A stretch of 64,000 bases of DNA from Halogeometricum sp. S1BR25-6 (lineage in GTDB: Archaea; Halobacteriota; Halobacteria; Halobacteriales; Haloferacaceae). The first letter of the stretch is position 1. Every line of letters begins with the position of its first letter. The notes beneath the pieces were generated by a model. The model was given only the letters and a program-made list of their open reading frames with translations, made no database searches and had not been told where the DNA came from. The stretch is from the NCBI RefSeq assembly GCF_031624495.1, contig NZ_JAMQOP010000002.1, forward strand, positions 1 through 64,000, given 5' to 3'. The translations under genes and the position numbers were made by a program. Positions 5,261 to 63,449 of this stretch are shown here, one piece after another.

Positions 5261-7174
5261 ATGGACGAGACGAACGGACGAGACGGGGCGGCCGGACGTG
5301 AGCGTCCGAACGGCGGACGCGAAGAGAGCGGGGAGACGGGCCGACGCCGGTTCGACGTCGGCGACCCCTCCGCGGAGTGGAAGCGGTATCAGGGGTCGCC
5401 CACCGGAACGGATATCGAGTGCCGGGGATGGCGACAAGAGGCGGCCCTGCGGATGCTGAACAACAACCTCGACCCGGAGGTGGCCGAACGCCCCGAGGAC
5501 CTCGTCGTCTACGGCGGCACCGGCCGCGCGGCCCGGTCGTGGGACGCCTACGACGCCATCCTCGCGGAGTTGCGCGAGTTGGGCGACGAGGAGACGCTCT
5601 TGGTCCAGTCGGGTAAACCGGTCGGGCGCTTCCGCACGCACGAACGCGCCCCGCGGGTGCTCATCGCCAACTCCAATCTCGTCGGGAAGTGGGACAACTG
5701 GGAGCACTTCCACGAACTGGAGGCCGAGGGGAAGATGATGTACGGGCAGATGACCGCGGGGTCGTGGGCGTACATCGGCACGCAGGGCATCCTGCAGGGA
5801 ACGTACGAGACGCTGGCCGAACTCGGCCGCCGGCATTTCCCCGACGAGGAGGGCCTCCGGGGCAGAATCGCCGTCACCGGCGGTCTCGGCGGGATGGGCG
5901 GCGCGCAACCCCTCGCGGTGACGATGAACCGCGGCGTCTGCATCGCCGCCGAAGTGGACGAAGAGAGAATCGACCGGCGCATCGAGACGGGGTACTGCGA
6001 AGAGAAGACCGACTCCGTGGCCGAGGCGGTCGAACGCGCCGAAGCGGCCGCGGAGGCGGGCGAACCGTACAGCGTCGGCGTCCACGGCAACGCGGCCGAC
6101 GTGCTCGAAACCATGCTCGAACGCGGCTTCGTCCCCGACGTCGTCACCGACCAGACTAGCGCGCACGACGAACTGGAGGGGTACTACCCGAGCGGGTATT
6201 CGGTGACAGAAGCGGACGCCCTCCGCGAGTCGGACCCCGAGCGATACGTCGAGGAGAGCGTCGACACGATGGCGCGGCACGTCGGCGCCATCCTGGCGAT
6301 GCAAGAGCGGGGGAGCGTCGCCTTCGAGTACGGTAACAACATCCGCGGGCAGGTGGAGTCGTACCGAGGGGACGTGGACGTTCCCGCGCGCGACGCGGGC
6401 AGCGGCGGGGCCGACTCCCGGTCGCCCTTCGACTTCCCCGGTTTCGTCCCGGCGTACGTCCGGCCGCTCTTTTGCAGGGGCAAGGGACCGTTCCGCTGGG
6501 CCGCTCTCTCCGGCGACCCCGCGGACATCCGACGGACCGACGACGCGGTCCTCGACCTGTTCCCCGACGACGACCGCCTCGCGCGGTGGATTTCGCTCGC
6601 CCGCGAGGAGGTGCAGTTCCAGGGACTCCCCGCCCGCGTCTGCTGGCTCGGGTATCGGACGGACGAGGAGGGCCTGACCGAACGCGCTCGCTTCGCCCTG
6701 CGGATCAACGAACTCGTCGCGCAGGGCGAAATCTCGGCGCCGATAGTCGTCACCCGAGACCACCTCGACGCCGGGAGCGTCGCTAGTCCGCACCGCGAGA
6801 CGGAGGCGATGCGCGACGGCACCGACGCGGTGGCCGACTGGCCGATTCTGAACGCCCTGCTCAACTGCGCCGCCGGCGCCGACATCGTCAGCGTTCACGA
6901 CGGCGGCGGCGTCGGTATCGGCAACGCCCTGCACGCGAACAACCACATCGTCCTCGACGGCTCGGACCTCGCGGCCGAGAAGGCGCGCGCGGTGTTCACC
7001 ACCGACCCCGGTATGGGGGTGATTCGCCACGCCGACGCCGGCTACGAGGAGGCGCTGGACGAGGCGGAGCGCTCGGGTGCTCACGTCCCGATTCCGCCCA
7101 CGGAAACGGGGCCGGCGGCCGGCGCGTCGGAGTCGGACGAGCGAGCGGAGGAAAAGGAGGCAGAACGCCGATGA
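5261..7174 (+). CDS. hutU: Urocanate hydratase (urocanase)
   Basis: Converts urocanate to 4-imidazolone-5-propionate, the second step of histidine degradation, using a tightly bound NAD+ as electrophile. The 637-residue protein shows urocanase hallmarks: [20 protein letters not shown] near residue 60, the NAD-binding glycine motif [11 protein letters not shown], and the conserved cysteine in [12 protein letters not shown]. The C-terminus contains [13 protein letters not shown]. It is longer than bacterial enzymes because of a ~55-residue disordered Gly/Arg/Glu-rich N-terminus and an acidic tail. The ATG was chosen because it is the first one after the promoter. It is the first gene of hutUGIH, and its stop overlaps the hutG start (ATGA). 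Confidence 0.93.
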
Positions 7175-36635: not shown

Positions 36636-37531
36636 GCGCAGACACCGAGGACGGACGCTTCCCGAGCGTCTCCCGCATCGCGCTGTACGCCGTTCTCGTC
36701 GCGATGGCGCTGTTCTACCTCGCGCCGCTGGAGACGGGGCTGATGACGGCCATCAAGACGCAGGACGCGTTCTTCTCGTCGACGCCGTTCGTGCCGCCGT
36801 TCGGCGACGGCTTCACGCTCGAACCGTGGTACGAGGCGTGGGCGACGATGCAGGGTCCGCTCACGGACTTCTCCGGCGCGCTGTACAACAGCGCGTTCGT
36901 CGCCATCCCGGCGACGGTGCTGTCGGGCCTCATCGGGTCCGTGGCGGCGTACGGGCTGACGAACCTCAACTGGCGCGGACAGGCCGGCGTGCTGATGCTG
37001 TTCGTCGCCGGGATGTTCGTCCCGTACCAGTCCGTGCTCGTCCCGCTGACGCGCTTTTGGACCATCGTCGGCCTGCAGAACTACCTGGCCGGCGTGCCGT
37101 TCCTCGCCCAGCGGGTCGGACTCATCGAACTCGTCGTCACGCACACGGCCTACGGGATACCCATCTGCACCATCCTGTTCCGGTCGTACTACGCGAGCTT
37201 CGACGAGTCGATGCTGGAGGCGGCGCGCATCGACGGCGCGACGTTCTCGCGCATCTACCGGCGCATCATCTTCCCGCTGTCGAAGCCGATGTTCGCGGTG
37301 GTGCTCATCTACCAGTTCACGCAGGTGTGGAACGACTTCCTGTTCGCGCTGGTGTTGGTGTCCTCGCCGACGAGCGAGGTGGCGACGATCGCGCTGAACA
37401 AACTCCAGGGCTCGATGGTCCAGCAGTACAACGTCCAGATGGCCGCCGCGTTCGTCGCGGCACTCCCGACGCTCTTGGTGTACGTCCTGTTCGGCGACCA
37501 GTTCGCCGAAGGGGTCGCAGGTGAAACATAG
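36632..37531 (+). CDS. Sugar-type ABC transporter permease (MalG-like)
   Basis: A 299-residue second permease with six membrane helices. The EAA loop reads LEAARIDGATFSRIYRRIIF, close to that of its partner. The N-terminal helix (IALYAVLVAMALFYLAPL) is followed by a ~50-residue external loop, as in MalG-type subunits. The ATGA overlap with the first permease gene and the one-base gap to the ATPase gene indicate a single transcript. Confidence 0.9.
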   Translation: MSADTEDGRFPSVSRIALYAVLVAMALFYLAPLETGLMTAIKTQDAFFSSTPFVPPFGDGFTLEPWYEAWATMQGPLTDFSGALYNSAFVAIPATVLSGLIGSVAAYGLTNLNWRGQAGVLMLFVAGMFVPYQSVLVPLTRFWTIVGLQNYLAGVPFLAQRVGLIELVVTHTAYGIPICTILFRSYYASFDESMLEAARIDGATFSRIYRRIIFPLSKPMFAVVLIYQFTQVWNDFLFALVLVSSPTSEVATIALNKLQGSMVQQYNVQMAAAFVAALPTLLVYVLFGDQFAEGVAGET

Positions 37532-37532
37532 C

Positions 37533-38672
37533 ATGGCAGAACTCACACTCGATCACGTTACGAAGGTGTACGACGACGACGGCTCGGACATCGTCGCGGT
37601 CGACGACGTCTCGATAGACATCCCCGACGGCGAGTTTCTCGTCCTCGTCGGCCCCTCGGGGTGCGGGAAATCCACCACGCTCCGGATGATAGCGGGGCTG
37701 GAGACGGTCTCCAGCGGCGACATCCGCCTCGGCGGCGACGTCGTTACCGGGCGCCCCCCGCGCGAACGCGACATCGCGATGGTGTTCCAGTCGTACGCGC
37801 TGTACCCGCACATGACCGTCCGCCAGAACATGTCGTTCGGCCTCGAAGAGTCGACCGACATGGCCGACGGCGAGATATCGTCGGTGGTCACCGACACCGC
37901 CGAGATGCTGAGCATCGGCAACCTGCTCGACCGGAAACCCGGCGAACTCTCGGGCGGGCAGCAACAGCGCGTCGCCCTCGGCCGCGCCATCGTGCGCGAC
38001 CCGAAGGTGTTCCTGATGGACGAACCGCTCTCCAATCTGGACGCCAAACTCCGCTCGCAGATGCGCACGGAGCTGCAGCGCCTACAGGAGGACCTCGGCG
38101 TCACCACCGTCTACGTCACGCACGACCAGACGGAGGCGATGACGATGGGCGACCGCATCGCCATCCTCAACGACGGCATCCTCCAGCAGGTGGCGACGCC
38201 CCTCGAAGCGTACCACCAACCCGCGAACCTGTTCGTCGCGGGGTTCATCGGCGAACCCTCGATGAACTTCTTCGAGATGGAGGTGCAGGGCGACCGGTTG
38301 AGCGGCGACCAACTCGACTACCCCATCTCGCAGGAGACGCGCGAGGCCATCGGCGACGCGACGAACGTCACGCTGGGCATCCGCCCGGAGGACGTGCAAC
38401 TGGTCGACGAGGGACAGGGCGACCACGACTTCGGCACCGTCGTCGACGTCGTCGAACCGATGGGCAACGAGAACAACGTCTACCTCTCGTTCGAGACGGA
38501 CGACCCAGCGGACTTCGTGGCGACCATCGACGGGATGCGGAGCCTCGACGCCGGGCAACCGGTCGTCGCTCGTATCCCCGAGGACGCCGTCCACCTGTTC
38601 GACACCGACACGGGTGAGACGCTGAAGAATCGCTCGCTCGCCGAACTCGAAGAGAACGAACCGCGCGTCTGA
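37533..38672 (+). CDS. Sugar-type ABC transporter ATP-binding protein (MalK/UgpC-like)
   Basis: A 379-residue ATPase that powers the importer. Motifs in order: Walker A GPSGCGKSTTL (residues ~38-48), Q-loop MVFQSYALYPHMTV, signature LSGGQQQRVALGRA, Walker B VFLMDEPLSNLDAKLR, and H-loop THDQTEAM. The C-terminal ~130 residues are a TOBE/MalK-type regulatory domain with LGIRPEDVQLVDE. Proteins of this kind may serve several importers. ATG at 37533 was chosen; a GTG 12 bases upstream overlaps the permease stop. The operon ends here, 15 bases before the first dispersed hairpin element. Confidence 0.92.
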   Translation: MAELTLDHVTKVYDDDGSDIVAVDDVSIDIPDGEFLVLVGPSGCGKSTTLRMIAGLETVSSGDIRLGGDVVTGRPPRERDIAMVFQSYALYPHMTVRQNMSFGLEESTDMADGEISSVVTDTAEMLSIGNLLDRKPGELSGGQQQRVALGRAIVRDPKVFLMDEPLSNLDAKLRSQMRTELQRLQEDLGVTTVYVTHDQTEAMTMGDRIAILNDGILQQVATPLEAYHQPANLFVAGFIGEPSMNFFEMEVQGDRLSGDQLDYPISQETREAIGDATNVTLGIRPEDVQLVDEGQGDHDFGTVVDVVEPMGNENNVYLSFETDDPADFVATIDGMRSLDAGQPVVARIPEDAVHLFDTDTGETLKNRSLAELEENEPRV

Positions 38673-38687
38673 GCGGACCGCTCCGTT

Positions 38688-38769
38688 ATAGTAGCGTCTG
38701 CACGTCTCCACACACTCGACCGCACGACGGCGTGCGGTCGGATGAGTACACAGTTGCAGACGCTACTAT
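38688..38769 (+). repeat. Dispersed hairpin element, copy 1
   Basis: An 82-base element bounded by perfect 15-bp inverted repeats, ATAGTAGCGTCTGCA (38688-38702) and TGCAGACGCTACTAT (38755-38769). The 52-base centre holds a second perfect 9-bp stem, CGACCGCAC/GTGCGGTCG, flanked by ACTC/GAGT. Copy 2 at 63364 differs in only 4 of 82 positions. It lies between the convergent ABC ATPase and bolA genes. No target-site duplication is evident. It could be a miniature transposable element, a 3' processing or terminator module, or a small RNA gene. Confidence 0.9.
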
Positions 38770-38781
38770 CGCTCTTCTTCC

Positions 38782-39051
38782 TCACGCCGACTCGCTCGCC
38801 GCCTCGTACTCCTCGGGCGTGTACGTCTTCAACTCCATCGCGTGGATGTCCGTCGTCATCGACTCCCCGAGGGCGTCGTACACCATCTGGTGCTGTTGGA
38901 CGAGCGTCTTCCCGTCGAACGCCGGCGAGACGATGACGGCCGCGAAGTGGGCGTCCTCGTGCTCCTCGTCCGGAACCCGGGGGAGCGTCACCGTCGCCTC
39001 CGCGTCCTCGATACCCGACTCGATGAGTCGTTCGACTTCTGCTGTCTCCAT
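38782..39051 (-). CDS. BolA family protein
   Basis: An 89-residue protein of the BolA family (class II KH-like fold). Typical features are the N-terminal helix TAEVERLIESGIEDAEATV, then the FDGKTLVQQHQMVYDALGE region with the conserved histidine, and IHAMELKTYTPEEYEA at the end. BolA proteins act with monothiol glutaredoxins in iron-sulfur cluster handling; in archaea the partner is unclear. The ATG was chosen since the longer frame upstream overlaps noncoding sequence. It is convergent with the ABC operon across the dispersed hairpin element. Confidence 0.85.
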   Translation of the reverse strand: METAEVERLIESGIEDAEATVTLPRVPDEEHEDAHFAAVIVSPAFDGKTLVQQHQMVYDALGESMTTDIHAMELKTYTPEEYEAASESA

Positions 39052-39344
39052 ACCCGCCGGTGGGGTCGCCGCCGGATAAAGTCCTCCGGGAGCGACCGGT
39101 CCGTCCGCCCGCGTCCTCTCAACCGCCGCCTCTGGAGTCAGAGGTGATAACCGACGAGGAACGAACGTAACCACCCTACTGAGAGCAGAGCGCCCGAACC
39201 GAAATCGGGGCCGCTGGAGCGCGATGTGTTCGTACTGGTCACCGATTCTCGAATCGACAGCTCCGGCGTCGAACCGGATTTTAAAATCATATCTGATAAC
39301 CGACGGCGAACTGTTTTGACCCGAACTGTCATCGAACGAGTCAG

Positions 39345-61137: not shown

Positions 61138-61269
61138 CAACGATTATCAGAATGATGAAAAATTATTACTTCGCTCCCGACCCTCGGCGGGGAATCTCGC
61201 CGGCGTCCGACGTCGCACCCTCGTCGGTCGAACGTGCGGCTTTTCATCCGCGGCCGTGAAGGCGGGGGT

Positions 61270-63369
61270 ATGGACCCGAAGCGGGAGTTGACGAGCGTGG
61301 ACCTCAGCGCTCTCGTCACCGAACTGAACCGGTACGAGGGGGCGAAGGTCGACAAGGCCTATCTCTACGGCGACGACCTGCTTCGCCTGCGGATGCGCGA
61401 TTTCGACCGCGGCCGCGTCGAACTCATCCTCGAAGTCGGCGACGTCAAGCGGGCGCACGCCGCCAAACCCGAGCACGTGCCCGACGCGCCCGGGCGGCCG
61501 CCGAACTTCGCGATGATGCTCCGCAACCGCCTCAGCGGCGCGGACTTCGCGGGCGTCGAGCAGTACGAGTTCGACCGCATCCTCACGTTCTCGTTCGAAC
61601 GCGACGACGAGGACACCGACATCGTGGTCGAACTGTTCGGAGAGGGCAACATCGCCGTCCTCGACGAGACGGGCGAAGTCGTCCGCAGTCTGGAGACCGT
61701 CCGGCTGAAGTCCCGGACCGTCGCCCCCGGCGCGCAGTACGAGTTCCCCGCCTCGCGCCTGCACCCCTTCACCGTGAGTTACGAGGGGTTCAAGCGCCGG
61801 ATGGAGGACTCCGACACCGACGTGGTGCGGACGCTGGCGACGCAGGTGAACCTCGGCGGCCTGTACGCCGAGGAGTTCTGCACCCGCGCGGGCGTCGAGA
61901 AGACGATGGACATCGAGGAGGCCGGCGGCGAGGAGTTCCGCGCCGTCTACGACGCCATCCAGTCGTTCCGCGACCGCCTGAAGTCCGGCGACTTCGACCC
62001 GCGCGTCTACGAGGAGGACGACGCCGTCGTCGACGCGACGCCGTTCCCCCTCGAAGAACACGAGGCGGAGGGGCTGAACAGCGAGTCCCACGACACGTTC
62101 AACGACGCGTTGGACGCGTACTTCTTCCGTCTCGACCGCTCCGCGGAGGACGACCCCGAGGAGGAACCGGGGTCGAATCGCCCGGACTTCGAAGAGGAGA
62201 TAGAGAAGAAAAAACGCATCATCCAACAACAGGAGGGCGCCATCGAGGGCTTCGAGGAGCAGGCCGAAGAGGAACGCGAACGCGCCGAACTGCTGTACGC
62301 CCACTACGACCTGGTGGACGAGGTGCTCACGACGGTCCGGGACGCCCGCAAGGAGGACGTCCCGTGGGACGACATCCGGGAGACGCTCGAAGACGGCGCC
62401 GAACGGGGCATCCCGGCGGCCGAAGCCGTCGTCGACGTCGACGGAGCGGAGGGCACTGTCACCGTCGAACTCGACGGCACGCGCGTCGAAGTCGTCGTCG
62501 ACACGGGCGTCGAGAAGAACGCCGACCGACTGTATACGGAGGCAAAGCGCGTCGAAGGGAAGAAGGAGGGCGCCCTCGCCGCCATCGAGGACACCCGCGA
62601 GGAACTGGCGGAGGCCAAGCGCCGCCGCGACGAGTGGGAGGCCGACGACGAGGACGACGACGAAGAGGAGGAACCCGAGGACATCGACTGGTTGTCCCGT
62701 TCGTCCATCCCCTTGCGTACCGAAGAGCACTGGTTCGAGCGGTTCCGCTGGTTCCACACCTCCGACGGCTACCTCGTCATCGGCGGGCGAAACGCCGACC
62801 AGAACGAGGAGATAGTGAAGAAGTATCTGAACAAACACGACCTGTTCTTCCACACGCAGGCGCACGGCGGCCCCGTTACCGTCGTGAAGGCGACGGGTCC
62901 CTCCGAACCCTCCGAGGCGGTGGAGTTCCCCGAGTCGACGAAGCGCGAGGCGGCGCAGTTCGCCGTCTCCTACGCCTCCGTCTGGAAGGACGGGCGGCAC
63001 GCCGGCGAGGCGTACATGGTGACGCCCGACCAGGTGTCGAAGACGCCCGAGTCCGGCGAGTACTTGGAGAAAGGTTCGTTCGTGGTCCGCGGCGACCGGA
63101 CGTACTTCCGAGACGTGGAGGCGAAAGTGACCGTCGGCGTGCAGTGCGAAGGGGAGACGCGCGTCCTCGGCGGACCGCCGTCGGCCGTCGAGGACCGCTT
63201 AGAGGCGAGCGTAACCCTCCAACCCGGTCGCTACGCGCAGAACGACGCGGCGAAGATGGTGTACCGCCGCTTCAAAGAGATGTTCGCCGACCAGTCGTTC
63301 CTCCGCAAGGTGGCGAGTCCGGACAAAATCCAGGAGTTCCTACCGCCGGGCGGCAGCGAGATACTATAG
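61270..63369 (+). CDS. rqcH: RqcH/NEMF-type ribosome quality control factor
   Basis: A 699-residue protein of the Rqc2/NEMF/FpbA (NFACT) family, which binds peptidyl-tRNA on split 50S subunits and directs C-terminal tailing of stalled chains. The NFACT-N domain begins SVDLSALVTELNRYEGAKVDK. A helix-hairpin region follows, then a coiled coil at ~300-345 (EEEIEKKKRIIQQQEGAIEG) and ~420-465. The NFACT-R domain contains WFERFRWFHTSDGYLVIGGR and KHDLFFHTQAHGGPVTVVKA. The ATG lies ~28 bases behind GCTTTTCAT. The TAG stop lies inside the left repeat of the dispersed hairpin element. Confidence 0.9.
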   Translation: MDPKRELTSVDLSALVTELNRYEGAKVDKAYLYGDDLLRLRMRDFDRGRVELILEVGDVKRAHAAKPEHVPDAPGRPPNFAMMLRNRLSGADFAGVEQYEFDRILTFSFERDDEDTDIVVELFGEGNIAVLDETGEVVRSLETVRLKSRTVAPGAQYEFPASRLHPFTVSYEGFKRRMEDSDTDVVRTLATQVNLGGLYAEEFCTRAGVEKTMDIEEAGGEEFRAVYDAIQSFRDRLKSGDFDPRVYEEDDAVVDATPFPLEEHEAEGLNSESHDTFNDALDAYFFRLDRSAEDDPEEEPGSNRPDFEEEIEKKKRIIQQQEGAIEGFEEQAEEERERAELLYAHYDLVDEVLTTVRDARKEDVPWDDIRETLEDGAERGIPAAEAVVDVDGAEGTVTVELDGTRVEVVVDTGVEKNADRLYTEAKRVEGKKEGALAAIEDTREELAEAKRRRDEWEADDEDDDEEEEPEDIDWLSRSSIPLRTEEHWFERFRWFHTSDGYLVIGGRNADQNEEIVKKYLNKHDLFFHTQAHGGPVTVVKATGPSEPSEAVEFPESTKREAAQFAVSYASVWKDGRHAGEAYMVTPDQVSKTPESGEYLEKGSFVVRGDRTYFRDVEAKVTVGVQCEGETRVLGGPPSAVEDRLEASVTLQPGRYAQNDAAKMVYRRFKEMFADQSFLRKVASPDKIQEFLPPGGSEIL

Positions 63370-63449
63370 TAGCGTCTGCAAGTCATCACACACTCGACCG
63401 CACGACGGCGGGCGGTCGGATGAGTACACAGTTGCAGACGCTACTATAG
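63364..63449 (+). repeat. Dispersed hairpin element, copy 2
   Basis: Second copy of the 38688-38769 element, same orientation relative to its upstream gene. Its 17-bp inverted repeats, CTATAGTAGCGTCTGCA (63364-63380) and TGCAGACGCTACTATAG (63433-63449), are perfect. The 52-base centre has the stem CGACCGC/GCGGTCG. The stop codon of rqcH (63367-63369) is inside the left repeat, so the gene's end is formed by the element. Differences from copy 1 fall only in the centre. Confidence 0.9.

Follow-up and report, generated by a model that had tools for sequence, protein, structure and literature searches.

Among the closest described systems is RUP of Streptococcus pneumoniae, a short (107 bp), intergenic, non-coding element associated with IS630-Spn1, which has IS630-like ends, a TA target that is duplicated, a high copy number and a stable hairpin (PMC2229807). 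ISY100, a member of the IS630 family, inserts almost only into TA, which it duplicates, and mini-transposons retaining 30 bp of each end transpose with the efficiency of the full element (PMC2170065). According to the title of a paper by Tenzen and Ohtsubo (1991), a composite transposon associated with IS630 prefers TA in CTAG (PMC2170065). In the haloarchaea, the SMRs and MITEs of Haloquadratum walsbyi are 80-110 bp in length, carry inverted repeats and differ in their insertions between strains (PMC3119063). Here, an 80-bp non-coding element that occurs twice in a 64,000-nucleotide stretch of a Halogeometricum genome (the whole stretch being referred to as the window) was compared with these systems. 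On sequence grounds the dispersed element is very probably an IS630-type MITE, for which a transposase of the ISNpe3 type would act in trans. It is a new family of a known, ordinary kind, and a function beyond self-propagation is not supported.

The two hairpins that the sequence-only reading had described in the window proved to be real: 78 of 82 positions agree, and the four exceptions (16, 20, 21 and 46 in the numbering of the 82 bases) lie only inside the inverted repeats. At 38688-38769 the repeat is perfect over 15 bp, and at 63364-63449 over 18 bp. The first copy comprises 80 bp (38689-38768, plus strand), an assignment based on the TA duplication at other copies, the family match and its absence from the corresponding site (L154) of the related genome G002. 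Its left terminal inverted repeat, TAGTAGCGTCTGCA (38689-38702, plus strand), pairs with 38755-38768, and its inner hairpin, CGACCGCACG-ACGG-CGTGCGGTCG (38717-38740, plus strand), is defined by the fold and by covariation within the family. The second copy (63367-63446, plus strand) is likewise absent from G002 (L158); its left terminal repeat, TAGTAGCGTCTGCAA (63367-63381, plus strand), has its partner at 63432-63446, and in its inner hairpin (63395-63418, plus strand) the fold and the alignment of the copies reveal a T-to-G substitution with the loss of one base pair. Read against filled and empty sites, the TA target duplication is present on both sides of copy 2 (63365-63366 and 63447-63448) and on the left of copy 1 (38687-38688), the right side of which (38769-38770) reads TC, the second TA having decayed; the layouts are thus TA-80 bp-TA for copy 2 and TA-80 bp-TC for copy 1. 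The terminal repeats, perfect over 14-18 bp in the window copies, are kept across the 107 copies of the family that were compared. Both window copies fold far better than shuffled sequences on either strand (z -6.4 to -8.9), and the inner stems, previously put at 9 and 7 bp, come in the plus-strand fold to 11 bp for copy 1 and to 8+2 bp for copy 2.

Filled and empty sites were compared by means of G002, a close relative with few copies. Flanks of 20 copies from the window's own genome were located in G002, where 17 of the sites are without the element; of the three that are occupied, one is intact, one has its core inverted and one is internally deleted. Both window sites are empty. The search for empty sites that had been proposed from the sequence was productive, given a relative that is free of most insertions. 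Three empty sites (GTCG-TA-GAACG, GATAC-TA-TTCACC and AAC-TA-CGACC) are clean at single-base resolution, and their filled counterparts have TA on both sides, from which it follows that the element inserts at TA, duplicates it, and is 80 bp long, TAGTAGCGTYTGCA...TGCARACGCTACTA. The earlier statement that no target duplication is seen was thus mistaken, since the duplicated TA runs on into the inverted repeat and looks like part of it. The target context is biased, with C before the TA in 72 of the 107 copies and G after it in 76; the full CTAG target is found at 46/107 copies as against 8 of the 919 TA sites of the window. At the place of copy 1, G002 has GTAGCTAC, also read as CCCCGGTAGCTACCCC, in which GTAG+CTAC may be the stump left by a deletion of the element or may have arisen by chance.

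A search of the complete genome and its relatives, likewise suggested from the sequence, revealed a dispersed family with far more than two members. The window's own genome (4.52 Mb) holds 23 copies on six contigs at E<1e-15, which excludes chance as an explanation for the window pair. Three congeners have 17, 13 and approximately four places, and a fourth has one fragment; across the family Haloferacaceae, 34 of 170 genomes and nine of 28 genera match. An exact pattern run over 84,980 species matched only in Halogeometricum, Halobellus, Haloferax, Halobium and Halegenticoccus, and BLAST extended the range to plasmids of Haloferax mediterranei, Halorubrum and Haloplanus. In Halobellus inordinatus (G086) no fewer than 49 places carry the element, and the near-identity of many of these copies, judged by sequence, indicates recent spread. 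Two copies in the window's own genome (L012 on contig C7 and L015 on contig C5) lie within a segment duplicated on two contigs, with flanks 95% identical on both sides. The halovirus and phage or viral-contig collections searched gave no match to the element, and a literature search, ISfinder and supplementary tables lying outside its coverage, returned no account of the 80-bp family.

At 80 bp the element is too short to encode a transposase, and a partner was sought among IS630 loci taken by protein profile from MITE-bearing and other genomes, the ends of which were located as TA-flanked inverted repeats with the MITE sequence unused. One haloarchaeal IS630 group emerged, of about 1,055 bp, TA-flanked, with two ORFs and ends of the form TAGTAG..GTTAGAA.T..TACTCA. 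Its ORFs match the IS630 model NF033545, related elements bear the annotation ISNpe3 family, and the group includes ISNpe3 of Natrinema pellirubrum, the ends and length of which are the same. When a profile of these ends was run on the window, 63366+, 63446- and 38688+ were the top three of 1,836 TA-preceded sites; the fourth MITE end has lost its TA. With the first six bases set aside, the match still holds (permutation p 0.0004 and 0.002), and MITE and IS630 ends are alike, rather than identical, at about 20-23 of 30 bases. A second IS630 group, with ATGAGT ends, bears no resemblance to the MITE. As regards the insertion sequence with matching ends envisaged in the sequence-only reading, ISNpe3-type ends are similar, but neither a search of 11 genomes nor the approximately 70 IS630 loci compared yielded an element with the exact MITE positions 7-13 (CGTYTGC, where the IS has, for example, TCGTTAG). 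Of 29 genomes that bear the MITE or belong to congeners, 16 have the IS630 DDE domain (DDE_3). The domain gave no match in the window's own genome, in H. limi (G001), in H. pallidum (G003) or in H. gibbonsii (G030), all of which bear the MITE, so that mobility at the present day is unsupported in these four; the copies in the window's own genome may accordingly now be stranded. A count over the 170 family genomes, which mixes several IS630 groups and is too broad for co-occurrence, has one weak IS630 match each in the window's own genome, H. limi, H. pallidum and G004.

The TA duplication, IS630-like ends and dispersal together identify the element as an IS630-type MITE, and of the options offered by the sequence-only reading it is the MITE that is supported, there being many copies and sites that are empty in a relative. 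From the similarity of the ends, we infer mobilisation in trans by an IS630-type transposase. An ISNpe3-type transposase would bind the approximately 28-bp ends of the MITE, cut the element out and paste it into a new TA. Insertions within genes would be purged, leaving survivors that are intergenic and found most readily just behind stop codons. The nested hairpin would most likely represent two similar transposon ends fused head to head around a short palindrome, with stems that covary between source subfamilies and mostly decay within single insertions.

The neighbourhood of the copies bears on the possibility that the element is a 3'-end or transcription-terminator module kept for its function. 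Both copies had been placed directly after a plus-strand gene, which holds for copy 2 and rqcH; copy 1 lies between two convergent stop codons, those of an ABC transporter ATPase gene on its left (37521-38672, plus strand) and of a gene for a BolA-family protein on its right (38782-39174, minus strand). Copy 2 does supply the rqcH stop codon, as had been noted: the ORF of this NFACT/RqcH protein (61234-63369, plus strand, 711 aa) has TAG as its last codon, and copy 2 begins with these three bases. At the empty site in G002 the protein ends ...EIL-ED-stop, and in the window ...EIL-stop, a shortening of approximately two residues, indicating that such insertions can trim protein C-termini. Short G+C-rich inverted repeats adjoin several copies (window 38660-38690; flanks of L011 and L006), for example CGCCCCGG-ACGG-CCGGGGCG beside L006, and may themselves be native 3'-end hairpins.

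Among the 107 copies, a stop codon lies within 30 nt of 35 and a start codon within the same distance of only nine, the MITE folds are very stable, and a hairpin without a T-run is reported to bring about partial termination of transcription in Haloferax volcanii (PMC7237163), all of which would be in keeping with a terminator. However, when neighbour orientation was taken from a codon-usage gene call, and is hence approximate, 27 copies were convergent, 43 tandem and 26 divergent in placement among the 96 for which a gene was called on each side, and one copy fell inside a gene, such that about a quarter lie between divergent genes, where no gene ends. Moreover, the main intergenic termination motif of H. 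volcanii is a stretch of T (PMC7237163), whereas TTTT occurs within 20 nt on the 3' side of one copy of the 107, and on the 5' side of none. Most sites are also empty in the sister genome G002, and single copies mostly have uncompensated stem breaks, all of which makes a terminator kept for its function very unlikely. Of the TA sites in the window, 72% are coding, yet the copies lie almost wholly outside genes, and their placement fits survival of the MITE where it does least harm, as opposed to a dedicated 3'-end device.

Compensatory change in the stems was also examined. Pairs 12-73, 13-72, 32-53 and 34-51 switch by double change in 18-46 sequences among the 107 copies; on trees from which the columns concerned had been left out, parsimony counts 2 to 14 switches, and there are nearly no intermediates at pair 13-72. 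Two of these four covarying pairs sit in the inner stem, outside the transposon ends, as might be expected of a structured (small) RNA family with stems under RNA selection. In the window's own genome, however, 36 stem breaks and 11 one-sided changes outnumber four double changes; compensation is thus evident between subfamilies, whereas most single copies decay uncompensated. In addition, positions are not conserved between species, and subfamily covariation is also expected from amplified symmetric source copies or from hairpin-templated correction. No Rfam family reached its gathering score in a scan of four loci. The small-RNA option therefore gained no positive evidence, and it appears highly improbable. 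The simplest reading of the covariation is that symmetric source copies of the MITE differ between subfamilies and that inserted copies then decay, and hairpin-templated correction could contribute.

At one orthologous site with identical flanks, the 80-bp core lies in opposite orientations in the window's own genome (L020, 1501-1583) and in G002 (L040, 1500-1582). Same-site, opposite-orientation cases are known for SwitchRepeats in Haloquadratum (PMC3119063), and inversion has been reported for Correia elements (PMC10969869). The inversion, the inner-stem covariation, the few intermediates at pair 13-72 and the four double-compensated changes are compatible with an element that keeps itself palindromic, by arm-to-arm copying or folded-strand selection, and whose core flips, with a cruciform as the active substrate, although this is regarded as a rather unlikely elaboration.

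A second family of nested hairpins, TAGGGATTATCGTAA...TTACGATAATCCCTA, of similar length and with its own inner hairpin, was observed in Halobellus inordinatus (L117:2800-2890, L123:395-475 and 6335-6425, L129:6234-6320, L131:7777-7860). Its flanking sequences suggest a 3-bp duplication, TCA/TGA, and the window holds no copy at up to three mismatches. Second-family elements also occur inside first-family copies, a MITE within a MITE, with TCA or TGA on both sides (L262, G086:C16:311000-311420; L263, G086:C16:442040-442460).

The first family is thus a MITE found in at least nine genera of the Haloferacaceae, for which insertion sites are known at single-base resolution and which has ties to a definite IS630 group. 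Hairpins that look conserved and lie near stop codons in haloarchaea, and that might otherwise pass for terminators or small RNAs, are a class explained by this family, and the copies in Haloferax mediterranei make both mobility and effects on mRNA ends testable.

With regard to other known systems, the palindromic structure, the intergenic location and a GTAG close to the end, which recurs in GTAG-REPs (PMC3733652), might recall a non-autonomous palindrome of the IS200/IS605 type, or a REP-like one, that moves in the form of single-stranded DNA. This seems extremely improbable, since the element is bounded by terminal inverted repeats and shows a TA duplication, both of which are absent in IS605-type elements and PATEs (PMC3119063), and its ends match IS630. 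Identity with an IS605-type PATE or REP was ruled out by the presence of both features, and identity with the Haloquadratum SMRs by the TA duplication and IS630-like ends. The SMRs and MITEs of H. walsbyi resemble the present MITE in host group, size, inverted repeats and strain-specific insertion, but by their published description, the sequence of the 80-bp HqIRS41 being outside the comparison, SMRs have no target duplication and ends unlike any transposon. Correia/NEMIS and ERIC are similarly TA-ended bacterial MITEs with stem-loops (PMC10969869, PMC2229807), but differ in host, sequence and length. The autonomous ISNpe3-type IS630 elements (~1,055 bp) share with the MITE the TA target, the preceding C, the TAGTAG ends and a subterminal ..AA.T..CTCA; they differ at end positions 7-13 and in having a transposase in two overlapping ORFs, and have nothing else in common with it. 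RUP is alike in all of the features given at the outset, a likeness for which no sequence relation is expected; the MITE described here differs from it in being archaeal, in its length of 80 bp, in having one frame open throughout and in perfect inverted repeats of 14-18 bp, as compared with the 9 listed for RUP.
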